A stretch of DNA of 64,000 nucleotides, from positions 3,844,001-3,908,000 of the forward strand of contig NZ_CP009520.1 of assembly GCF_000969905.1 (NCBI RefSeq). The letters are read 5' to 3'. Made by a program: the position numbers and the translations under genes. Below, piece after piece: positions 15,695 through 35,375 of the stretch. The notes under the pieces are model-generated. The model had not been told where the DNA came from. It was given only the letters and a program-made list of their open reading frames with translations, and made no database searches. Positions within the stretch are counted from its first letter, which is position 1, and every line of letters starts with the position of its first letter. This DNA comes from Methanosarcina vacuolata Z-761. Lineage in GTDB: Archaea; Halobacteriota; Methanosarcinia; Methanosarcinales; Methanosarcinaceae.

Positions 15695-16300
15695 ACTTTT
15701 TCGGTTTTCGCTGTTGAAGTACTTGTTATTAGTCCTTATGCTAGAGTCTCAAACATTTTAAGTTTAAAGAGCTTGAGCGCATAAGTTCGGACTTATAAGC
15801 TATTTACAAATTATAATTTAGAAGTTTATACTTCAAGGCTTTTTCAAAAAATTAAATAGCTTACAACCTGACTTCCGCTTTTTTAAGCGCATAAATTCAA
15901 TTTTTCCATAATTTCTTTTTGCTTTCTTGTGAGTTCTGTAACTATTACCTCTCCATTTTGCAGTTCTACTTTTCTGATCTTCTCAAGCTCTAAAAGTAAA
16001 CTCTCTACTGTATAATCCTCAATAATTTTTGTTTCCTTCATCATACTCAGTAGCTTCATTCTAATAATTAGTCCGATAAAGCAGACAAAAATGAATCCCT
16101 TTGTTGTTGAATCTTTGTTTGTGTTTAGTGGAAGCGACTGAATATCATTTTTCATTACTTTGAATCCTTTCTCAACAATATCTCTTTCTCTGTAGTAAGT
16201 GAGACATTCTACCCAATCACGTTCTCCATAATAAAAAAGGAAAAACTTCCCCATTCTGTTCATTCTCTGCGATACTGCATTTTTCTTGATATTGATTTTG

Positions 16301-17498
16301 GGTCGTGTCCCTAAATCATTGACTTAGTTTTATATAATCTTGAATCTATTATTATTTGGGGGCATCTTAATTACTTCTGAAATAGATTTTTCACAATTTT
16401 TTTGCTGGAACAAAGACTGCACTGATTATGGAATTAAAAATCAAGGGAATATAGTTCTTAAAGAAAGATATGGTAAAAATAACCATTTGCTTCTTAAATG
16501 TAAAACTTGTAAAAAATGTTTTAGTGAAACTAGAGGTACAATATTTTTCGAACTCAACACTTCTGATGAAGAAGTTCTAAGGACAATAGCTATGATTCCT
16601 GAAAAAGGAAGTATCCGTGGAGTTGCAAGAGCTACTGGACATAGTAAAGATACAATTTGCAGATGGCTTGAGATTGCAGGAAGGCATGCAGAAGAAGTTA
16701 CAACTTATTTCCTCAAAAATCTTAATCTTACGAGAGTAGAGGTTGATGAGATCTGGTCATATATAAAAAAAGCAAAAAAATGTTACTGAAGAAGATTCTG
16801 AAGAGTATGGTGACGTATATTCACTTACAGCAATCAAAAGTGACACAAGATTGCTTCTTTCTCATCATGAAGGAAAACGTAGTACAGAGGATGCTATAGA
16901 GTTATTTAAAGAAGTTGAGAATATGCGTTCCCCATCTTCTCCTATCCCTGTATTTACCTCAGATGATTGGGATGCCTTTGAAGAAGCACTTATAAACGTT
17001 TATGGTAAAATCGAGTTGCCACAGTACAAAGGCATCGGAAGAAAACCGCTACCTAAAATAGTTCCACTTGACGATTTAAAATATGTCAAAGTATTGAAAA
17101 AAAAGGTAAAAAATTATATAGTTGAAACAGTTCAACGTATCATCTTTGGAGATCCTGAAGAGATATTCGAAATGCTTGGAGCTGATTCGGATGGTTATAT
17201 TGGAACTTCTTATGTAGAAAGGATAAACCTTACGATAAGGACATCTCTTGCAAGATTTATAAGAAAAGGAATGAATTTCAGTAAAACCAAAAGGATGCAT
17301 CAGAAAGCATTTGACTTATTCCAAGCATGGTATAACTTTGTAAAACCTCATAAGTCTCTAAGGTTAAAAATAGATTCTGGAAATAGAAAATGGTTTCAAA
17401 GGACTCCAGCTATGGCAGAAGGAATAACTGATCACATATGGAGTTTAAAGGAACTATTAACATTTAGAGTTCCTGTTCAATAATTTGAGGACACGACC
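16301..17498 (+). mobile_element. IS1-family-like insertion sequence with 8-bp target duplication
   Basis: Ends are GGTCGTGTCCCTAAAT at 16301 and its near-inverse ATTTGAGGACACGACC ending at 17498. The 8-bp TGATTTTG occurs directly on both sides (16293-16300 and 17499-17506) and is present once in the restored IS1634 transposase. The length of 1198 bp is larger than classical bacterial IS1 but in line with archaeal members. Confidence 0.9.
16340..17483 (+). pseudogene. IS1-type transposase in two frames joined at an A7 run
   Basis: The first frame carries a zinc-ribbon-like N-terminus (CWNKDC...LKCKTCKKCF), an HTH (VARATGHSKDTICRWLEIAG) and the start of the catalytic core (VEVDEIWSYIKK), and ends at TGA 16787. 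The second frame, +1 relative to it, continues NVTEEDSEEYGDVYSLTAIK and includes DDWDAFEEAL and YVERINLTIRTSLARF..K, to a stop at 17483. The switch lies at AAAAAAA (16774-16780), with a second A7 at 16765-16771. One A fewer would restore a single gene, so this is either a homopolymer indel or expression by slippage. The start codon is uncertain (TTG at 16340). Confidence 0.75.
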
Positions 17499-18673
17499 TG
17501 ATTTTGAAATGGTCATCTATCTTTTTCCACGAATAGAAACTTGCCATTTCCCTTGCTCTCTCTTTGAACACCTCTGCCGCATTTCTCCATCCTGGTATTG
17601 CTGTTTCTTCCAGTTTTTCCTTCACATCATAAAGACGGGAGTAAAATGTACTTTTTTCGTCCATTTCTCTCTTTGGATCATAGAAACAGTATCCATTGAT
17701 CTTGAACTCCTTTTGCTCAAGAGTCACTGGCTTTACAAATATTGGTTTTTTGTGAAACTTATGAAGATATTCCGGACTTTCGATGTCTTTTTGTACTGAA
17801 CTCATAAGCTCTTTGACACTTTTAAGTGCCATTGTAGCTGGCATAATAAAAGGAATCTTTTCCCTTACTAATTCCTCGATGTTTCCCTTGCTGAAAAATC
17901 CTCTATCCATTACCAGTGTATAGTTTTCCATTCCATGAGCTTCTATCTTTTTTATAGTATTTTTAAGAGTTGTAACGTCTACAATACTTCCAGGATAGAT
18001 GTCATACATCACCGGAATTCCTTTTTCCTTATCCACAATCATGGAGAGATTTATTTGAGGGAGATCGCAATTGTCTCTATTGTATCCGTATTCAAGAAGA
18101 TTAATTAGTTGTGAGTAGCTCGATAAACTGGTAAGATCGTACATTAATGTGCGTTTTGTCCCAAGATTTCTAAACATTTTACCCATAAACATGGATGGAA
18201 TGTCGCTATTACCTACTTTTGCAAGTAGATTACTGATGTTTTGACTTTTCAAGGGCAACTCAGGACACTGGAGAGAAAGAACAGAATTCTCATACCAGGT
18301 TTTAAGGTTATACATAGCTGTAGGACGAATTACACGATTAAGTGCCATTGAAAGTATCATGTTTCTGTCTTTCTCATTGAACAGATCACCAAGATACTCT
18401 TCAATTTTGAGTTCTTCTACGATTTTTTGCAATGGAAGGAACTCACCATAGTTATAAGCATTTATAGGTTTGCTGGAAACGAAAGAAGTCTCATCTTGCA
18501 CGATTTCATCGGAAGAGTTTAATGCGTCACGAACTCTAACAGGTTTACCGTTTATGTTTCTGCCAACATATTTGGATTTATGGCGAATTTGTTTCTTTTC
18601 CTTATCGTAATAAGGAATATCTTCGTACCAGTACTCAATTCCATTTATTTTCTTGATGCGGAGGATAGACTTC

Positions 18674-18696
18674 ATGCGCTTATATAATAAGCGCAT
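18674..18696. promoter_or_regulatory. Perfect 10-bp palindrome over the IS1634 transposase start
   Basis: ATGCGCTTAT-ATA-ATAAGCGCAT overlaps the start codon at 18675. Its ATGCGCTTA half-site is also the inner part of both terminal inverted repeats, so transposase binding here could repress its own gene. The regulatory role is inference. Confidence 0.4.
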
Positions 18697-18863
18697 AATA
18701 GTATAGATAGTTTTTGAATTGTTGTTTGGAAATGAGTAAGTTAGTATGCATCTGCACACGAATTAAATGAGCAAAATAGGGATACAAAAAGTATGCGCTT
18801 AAAATTTGGGAATTAAGGTTATAAACCAGAAAACAATATCAATCGATTTTCATAATTTTCTAC

Positions 18864-33418: not shown

Positions 33419-34474
33419 TCACCATTTTTTACATCTAAATATTACTGTTAAAACAAGCATTGCAGCAACAGGTACAATAATTGAAGGGAAATCTGAGAAA
33501 TTAGTGGTAGATTTACTGATATTTGGAGCAAACTTCTGAATGCATAATATACTATAATCGGCAACATAAACATTACCCGAAGAATCTAAAGCAACACCAA
33601 ATGGTTCATTAAATTGTCCGTTGCCGGTGCCATACGAACCCCATTGGGTAATATAGTTACCACTGCTATCAAACTTCTGAATACGATTATTGCTTGAATC
33701 GGCAACATATACATTGTCCGAAGAATCTACAGCAACACCAGATGGATTTTTAAATTGTCCGTTGCCGCTTCCCGAAGAACCCCATTGAGTAAGGTATCCA
33801 CCGTTGCTGTCAAACTTCTGAATTCGATTATTATATTGATCGGCAACATAAACATTGCCCGAAGAATCTACAGCAACACCTATTGAACCATTAAATTGTC
33901 CGTTGCCGGTGCCTAAAGAGCCCCATTGTGTAAGGTATCCGCCGTTGCTGTTAAATTTCTGAATGAGAGAATTGTGAGGATTGTCAGCATAAACATTGCC
34001 CAGAGAATCTACAGCGATACCGGATGTACAAGAATAGTGTCCATATATATGTTCATAGCCGCTGCCATTACAAACCCATTGTGTAAGATATCCGCCAGTG
34101 CTGTTAAATTTCTCAATGCGATTGTTGCTTGGATCGACTACATAAACATTGCCCGAAGAATCTACAGCAACACCAGATGGTTCTTCAAATTGTCCGTTGC
34201 CGGTGCCATACGAACCCCATTTTGTAAGGAAAGTTCCGTTGCTATCGAACTTCTCAATTCGATCTTTATGCAAAAAGGCAACATAAACATAGCCAGAAGA
34301 ATCTACAGCAATACTTCTTGGATAACTAAAAACGTTGCCGGTGCCATACGAACCCCATTTAGTAACAAAATTATAAGTCTCAGCATGCGCAACCGAAGCG
34401 CTCATCAATCCAAGAAATAATAAAACCAAACAAAACAATATTTTCCCAGAAACATTAACTCGTTGATATTTCAT
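33419..34474 (-). CDS. Secreted NHL-repeat beta-propeller with C-terminal membrane tail
   Basis: A 351-residue surface protein. A signal peptide (start MKYQRVNVSGKILFCLVLLF) precedes six or so NHL repeats of about 47 residues, each with GVAVDSSGNVYVADxxNNRIQKF and a WGSxGTGNGQF spacer; together they should close a beta-propeller used for binding. After FAPNISKSTTNFSDFPSIIV comes a hydrophobic stretch and an RCKK end, which resembles the PEF-type archaeosortase tail, so the protein is probably anchored outside. Ligand unknown. The high similarity of the repeats at DNA level suggests recent expansion or ongoing gene conversion. Confidence 0.85.
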   Translation of the reverse strand: MKYQRVNVSGKILFCLVLLFLGLMSASVAHAETYNFVTKWGSYGTGNVFSYPRSIAVDSSGYVYVAFLHKDRIEKFDSNGTFLTKWGSYGTGNGQFEEPSGVAVDSSGNVYVVDPSNNRIEKFNSTGGYLTQWVCNGSGYEHIYGHYSCTSGIAVDSLGNVYADNPHNSLIQKFNSNGGYLTQWGSLGTGNGQFNGSIGVAVDSSGNVYVADQYNNRIQKFDSNGGYLTQWGSSGSGNGQFKNPSGVAVDSSDNVYVADSSNNRIQKFDSSGNYITQWGSYGTGNGQFNEPFGVALDSSGNVYVADYSILCIQKFAPNISKSTTNFSDFPSIIVPVAAMLVLTVIFRCKKW

Positions 34475-34645
34475 TTTTGAAATCCTTCCTTGTTTTTTTT
34501 CATCTACGACCTTTAAAAGTCCAAGCTATGATTAGATATTAAAACTTTCCTTGCTTAATGTGCAATTATATTAAATATTCAAACGGTTGAATATATATAA
34601 AAATAATCTAATAGAAAAACAATTGTATAGAGACAGTAAGCTATT

Positions 34646-34784
34646 TCAATCCACATTTCGACCCCCTGCCAATAGGGGCAAATAATTCCTGTATATTGGC
34701 CATTTAATTAATAGGACCTCAACAAAATGGCATATTTGTACCATGAATTTGTACAAAAATGCCAGAATTCGAAATGTGAGTTGA
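34646..34784. repeat. Cloverleaf-like palindromic unit
   Basis: Outer arms TCAATCCACATTTCGA (34646-34661) and TCGAAATGTGAGTTGA (34769-34784) pair at 14 of 16 positions. Inside are CCCCT/AGGGG (34663-34667, 34674-34678) and TGGCATATTTGTAC / GTACAAAAATGCCA (34728-34741, 34751-34764). Could be a structured RNA or a small mobile element; no reading frame. Confidence 0.55.
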
Positions 34785-34859
34785 AGGCTATACATATTGA
34801 ATCTTAATTCTAATTAGAGACTGAATCTTTTTTACGAATTCAGATTTTCAATCAAGAAA

Positions 34860-35138
34860 CCTAGATTCGGCAGGTCGACATAAGGAATTTGAACATTTTT
34901 ATTGATATCGTTTTTTGAACATTTGATAAATATACATTAGATTTAAAGTTGGTTAACGTGTGGTTCAACTCCCACGACACATATAAATACTGAATCATTT
35001 TTCCATTAAAGTTTAGTATGAGAGATTATGTTTGGATCATATGTAAACCGCACAACTGCACATAATAAGGGACCCTCATTTCAAAACCGCAATCAGTAAA
35101 AATGATCAGAAATGAAATGTCGACCTGCCTAATCTAGG
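34860..35138. mobile_element. 279-bp MITE with 22-bp TIRs and 6-bp target duplication
   Basis: Ends CCTAGATTCGGCAGGTCGAC(AT) and the inverse with one mismatch (C to A), 22 bp each, at 34860-34881 and 35117-35138. AAGAAA flanks both sides (34854-34859, 35139-35144). The interior is AT-rich, without a frame longer than a few dozen codons, so it needs a transposase in trans. No matching autonomous element is in the window. Confidence 0.85.
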
Positions 35139-35213
35139 AAGAAATGCAAAAATCACTATATTTTGGAACAGAGTCGATTAAAAACCCATCAAATTTGAAG
35201 AGGATACAATTAA

Positions 35214-35375
35214 TCTGAAACTTCCCTCCACGCCCGCATGCTCATGAAGGGAGCAGGTATCGGGCGGTCACTGGCAAGAAATAAGTAAAAATAGAATAGA
35301 CGGTTGCCATAAAAAGAATGTTATAACTGACACACTGTTAGCATCATCTATGAGAGCCAGTCTTGACCAGAATAA
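35214..35375. repeat. Palindromic repeat family R, copy B (longest form)
   Basis: AACTTCCCTCCACGCCCGCA, inner stem GCTC/GAGC, ATCGGGCGGTCACTGGC, then a tail with GTTGCCATAAAAAG and CTATGAGAGCCAGTCT. The tail also occurs, inverted, in copy D (40488-40628), so the full unit is about 150 bp. Confidence 0.75.

Follow-up and report, generated by a model that had tools for sequence, protein, structure and literature searches.

A 279-bp MITE with IS1634-type ends in the genome of Methanosarcina vacuolata Z-761

The stretch of the Methanosarcina vacuolata Z-761 genome analysed here (64,000 nucleotides, hereafter the window) contains a 279-bp element, which we regard with high confidence as a non-autonomous MITE mobilised by an IS1634-family transposase encoded by IS copies elsewhere in the genome. 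The element has IS1634-type ends and a target duplication, its copies are differently flanked, a paralogous empty site exists, and an IS with matching outer ends is present in the same genome. It is an ordinary IS1634-type MITE, of a kind well known in methanogens.

The left terminal inverted repeat begins with CCTAGATTCGGCAGGTCGACAT, and the right one is its reverse complement with a single mismatch at position 9 (Table 1). A longer inverted repeat covers 56 nt at 77% complementarity. Both ends read CCTAGATT, as expected from the IS1634 terminal consensus C-----YT. When up to three mismatches are allowed, the window holds two occurrences of the 20-nt end pattern, compared with none in 100 shuffles. 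No open reading frame of at least 60 aa overlaps the element, which is thus free of a transposase gene. These observations agree with the preliminary description, which had proposed a 279-bp MITE with 22-bp terminal repeats differing at one base, a 6-bp AAGAAA duplicated on both sides and an interior lacking a transposase.

Table 1 Features of the MITE and its insertion site. Positions are those of the window; the coordinates of the element are exact in the window sequence.
Feature	Coordinates	Strand	Remark
MITE, IS1634-type ends, 279 bp	34860..35138	.	ends, copies, duplications
Left 22-bp terminal inverted repeat	34860..34881	+	
Right 22-bp terminal inverted repeat	35117..35138	-	1 mismatch to left
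AAGAAA target site duplication, left copy	34854..34859	+	abuts the element; single in paralogous empty site
AAGAAA target site duplication, right copy	35139..35144	+	abuts the element
Target, left part	34778..34859	+	remnant of another dispersed repeat, ~200 bp
Target, right part	35145..35175	+	same dispersed repeat, end GATTTTGGAACAGAGTC-like

The M. vacuolata genome (4.56 Mb, two contigs) holds 28 matches to the MITE. Eight of them span nearly the whole element (271-279 bp, 82-100% identity, the element itself counted in), and the remainder are fragments, single ends or second matches to one copy. In the search of relatives, matches were found in 13 of 29 genomes, own genome included, all within one of ten genera. 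Across the order, 18 of 149 genomes, representing 2 of 24 genera, contain the exact 16-mer TTCGGCAGGTCGACAT. Related copies are present in many Methanosarcina genomes, and their flanks are unrelated, contrary to the shared flanks that the preliminary description had named as grounds for rejecting a MITE.

We surveyed flanks and ends in 77 MITE copies, a subset of those listed by the searches, and obtained an end pair for 72 of them and none for five. Exact direct repeats of 5-7 bp abut 46 of the 72 copies (5 bp in 8 copies, 6 bp in 35 and 7 bp in 3), compared with 1.2 copies on average and never more than 5 when the right flanks were reshuffled 1000 times. The duplication has the IS1634-like length of exactly 5 or 6 bp in 43 of the 72, and among the eight own-genome copies an exact 6-bp duplication flanks five, including the one studied here. 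An alignment of 67 copies of 265-285 bp revealed an interior about as conserved as the ends; therefore, the whole MITE behaves as a unit. The subterminal motif GTCGACAT is strongly conserved across this alignment.

Left and right end hexamers match exactly within 23 of the 72 copies. The mean within-copy distance is 1.14, against 1.26 in within-genome shuffles, of which 84 in 2000 were as low. We do not consider this a striking signal, as the effect is modest and is explained by subfamilies with fixed unlike ends. One such subfamily, of 237 bp, was found in genome G013 (L241, L258 and L054): its ends, GGCAGGTCGACAT and GGCAGGTAACTT, are unlike, one of them being TTCGGCAGGTCGACAT, and 5-6 bp duplications flank all three copies read. 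Since it combines one GTCGACAT end with one GTAACTT end, both types can serve a single element. Some MITE ends elsewhere are expanded into arrays resembling foldback elements: in G034 (L268, 850-990), five 31-bp units stand in tandem at the right end, and in G004 (L269, 480-985) the left end has three units of ~75 bp and the right end two of ~82 bp.

The MITE lies between genes, inside the remnant of a dispersed repeat of ~200 bp that has about ten related copies in the same genome. When the flanks were joined without the MITE and compared with all the loci collected, eight loci crossed the junction. The best match, L225 from Methanosarcina sp. ERenArc_MAG2, is identical at 97 of 111 positions without gaps and reads TCAAGAAATGC, with AAGAAA present once; it is a paralogous uninterrupted site of the MITE target. 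At the orthologous position, homology to the left flank ends at window position 34649 in G015 and G040, and homology to the right flank starts near 35270 in G030; consequently, no searched genome was seen to span the site. The empty site that the preliminary description had suggested looking for was therefore found as a paralogue, whereas the genomes searched yielded no orthologous one. A short way to the left of the MITE, window positions 34644-34785 form a second short dispersed repeat, with an 86% copy at G000:C2:2024431-2024574 (own genome) and weaker ones. The neighbouring genes encode an MtrA-domain protein (PF04208, 35612-36226), 473 bp downstream, and, on the opposite side and oriented away, an NHL-repeat protein (33419-34474).

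The preliminary description had placed the mobilising transposase outside the window and had suggested searching the genome for matching ends around a transposase gene. Such a search identified a 1720-bp IS1634-family IS, the best candidate, in three copies (L157-L159) flanked by 6-bp duplications (ATACAG, ATTAAA and ATGAAA). The three copies are 100% identical, and recent activity of this IS is thereby visible. The 542-aa transposase, taken from a 96.6%-identical copy, matches NF033559 with 401 bits (cut-off 100 bits), which assigns it to the IS1634 family, and carries the Pfam domains DUF4277 and DDE_Tnp_1. The traits given for IS1634 in PMC2266710 are C-----YT termini, a length of 1500-2000 bp and direct repeats of 5-6 bp; with its transposase, length and 6-bp repeats, the 1720-bp IS conforms to the family. 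The MITE, at 279 bp and without a transposase, differs from an autonomous member, and yet it shares the published ends and duplication length, which supports its link to IS1634.

The two elements agree in their outermost bases. Compared with either end of the 1720-bp IS (CCTAGATTCGGCAGGTAAAC and CCTAGATTCGGCAGGTTAAC), the left end of the MITE is identical over the outer 16 of 16 nt, and the right end over 15 of 16. In blastn, MITE positions 1-16 align with IS positions 1720-1705 at 100%, and positions 1-23 with IS positions 1-23 at 91%. After the common 16 bases the MITE continues with CGAC and the IS with AAAC or TAAC, and blastn between the MITE interior and this IS gave nothing in common at a meaningful E-value. 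The named loci that carry the partner IS, among them ones from M. spelaei and Methanosarcina sp. ERenArc_MAG2, indicate Methanosarcina as its genus.

When the window was searched with the matching IS1634-type transposase, no IS with MITE-like ends was found, as the preliminary description had stated. Apart from two chance-level matches, the search gave a weak match (E = 0.003) at 16132-16263, inside a different, broken IS1634-family IS (15867-18818) that is 98.7-99.5% identical to an intact copy in the genome and is split by an IS1-like element, which occupies ~16300-17499 and has two open reading frames. Its genomic copies elsewhere end in CCTTAATTCCC / CCTGACTTCCG, which do not match the MITE. 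The abundant IS1634-family IS with these ends and a 557-aa frame was accordingly rejected as a partner; the end that it seemed to share belongs to a second MITE, which one copy carries in the 3' part of its gene. A group of ~50%-identical IS1634 elements was also rejected, since their ends mostly read TTCCGCAG instead of TTCGGCAG. One member of the ~50%-identical group, in G013 (L144, G013:C1:4119000-4123500), has TTTCCGCA-type ends and is nested in a MITE copy.

We also observed a sibling MITE of ~260 bp in the M. vacuolata genome, with ends CCTGCTTTCGGCAGGTCGACAT / CCTACATTCGGCAGCAAGCAC (from ~1979 in L057 and from ~2038 in L058); one copy of it is inserted into an IS1634-family transposase gene (L056, L067), in the 3' part. 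In G015, a MITE copy with a TTAGTA duplication (L041, 1471-1808) lies between flanks that, on visual inspection, correspond to transposase sequence of the abundant IS1634-family IS. Thus, a MITE can disrupt elements related to the one that moves it.

Our model suggests that full-length copies of an IS at other genomic sites would supply an IS1634-family DDE transposase, which would act on the terminal inverted repeats of the MITE; the element would then insert into A+T-rich target DNA and create a 6-bp duplication. In this instance it landed intergenically within the repeat remnant. Judging from the shared outer ends, the transposase of the 1720-bp IS may bind the MITE and mobilise it in trans, although the mover could instead be a close sublineage carrying GTCGAC subterminal bases.

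The identity of the mover is where the main alternative arises. The MITE may be of the same kind, with its true partner being not the 1720-bp IS but another IS1634 sublineage, now lost or unsampled, whose ends read GTCGACAT; we hold this to be a serious but clearly less probable reading. The strong conservation of GTCGACAT in the aligned copies points towards it, because the close IS relatives mostly carry GTAAAC or GTTAAC. A fragment in G004 (L358) points the same way: it was the only locus seen with a GTCGACAT IS-like end beside a transposase start, which lies 57 bp inside the TTCGGCAGGTCGACATTAAA end. The 237-bp subfamily of G013 argues against it by joining a GTCGACAT end to a GTAACTT end. 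Moreover, MITE ends follow the IS ends present today: in G033, a 68%-identical IS carries a CTTACT end, as do some MITEs of that genome. Across ten genomes, MITE end hexamers are nearer to the IS ends of their own genome (mean 1.01 differences) than when permuted (1.44; fraction 0.0054), in a comparison that ignores kinship among the ten genomes, uses hand-compiled IS hexamers and leaves out both the G004 fragment end GCTAAA and several end variants from decayed or distant IS copies, among them those of L163, L166 and L169 in the M. vacuolata genome.

It appears very improbable that the element is, instead of a transposon, a structured repeat that does not move and has a regulatory or RNA-coding role. 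Its evenly conserved interior would suit such a role, as would the predicted single-strand DNA fold (z = -5.7), which surpasses all 200 shuffles; however, the fold results mostly from the paired inverted ends, and the target duplications and the empty-site paralogue are those of a mobile element. A tRNA-like interior, prompted by GGTTCAACTCCCAC, was likewise discarded: ARAGORN and Rfam gave no match, with Rfam searched at E up to 1 and no tRNA found. A larger segmental duplication as the source of the copies has a negligible probability, as nothing in support of it was found and it is refuted by the unlike flanks and by the duplication that each of the 46 copies has of its own.

The mobilised MITE thus remains our favoured reading, and its age can be considered separately. 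The preliminary description had read the intact ends as a sign of recent mobility, a view that our data do not support for this copy, the closest copy found being 91.8% identical. Pairwise identities among the eight own-genome copies reach 95.7% at most, with 83.5% as the median. In contrast, 100% identical pairs are present in G015, G029 and G039, and the family has therefore moved recently elsewhere.

Related elements have been described in the genus. PMC3852290 (2013) lists IS1634-linked MITEs of ~250 bp for Methanosarcina, and its Table 4 assigns one from M. barkeri to ISMba11 (IS1634; 247 bp, 23 copies, IR 20, DR 6) and one from M. acetivorans to ISMac10 (IS1634; 249 bp, 15 copies, IR 18, DR 0). 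Compared by these listed descriptions, the ISMba11-linked MITE resembles ours in genus, IS family, 6-bp duplication, terminal repeats of ~20 bp and a similarity to the IS confined to the ends, and differs in length (247 versus 279 bp). The ISMac10-linked MITE, compared in the same manner, shares genus and IS family and differs in length and in its direct repeat (249 bp and DR 0 versus 279 bp and DR 6). The same source notes that archaeal MITEs often match their IS at the borders only.

We tentatively speculate, as an idea more likely wrong than right, that the terminal hexamers of MITEs and IS1634 elements co-evolve within each genome under the choice of the transposase, and that some MITE ends expand into arrays, giving foldback-like prokaryotic elements. 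The element described here offers a clean case in which a family of archaeal MITEs can be tied to one of IS elements through ends, duplication length and an empty-site paralogue. The link between this MITE and IS1634 helps to annotate Methanosarcina genomes and leaves the general view unchanged.
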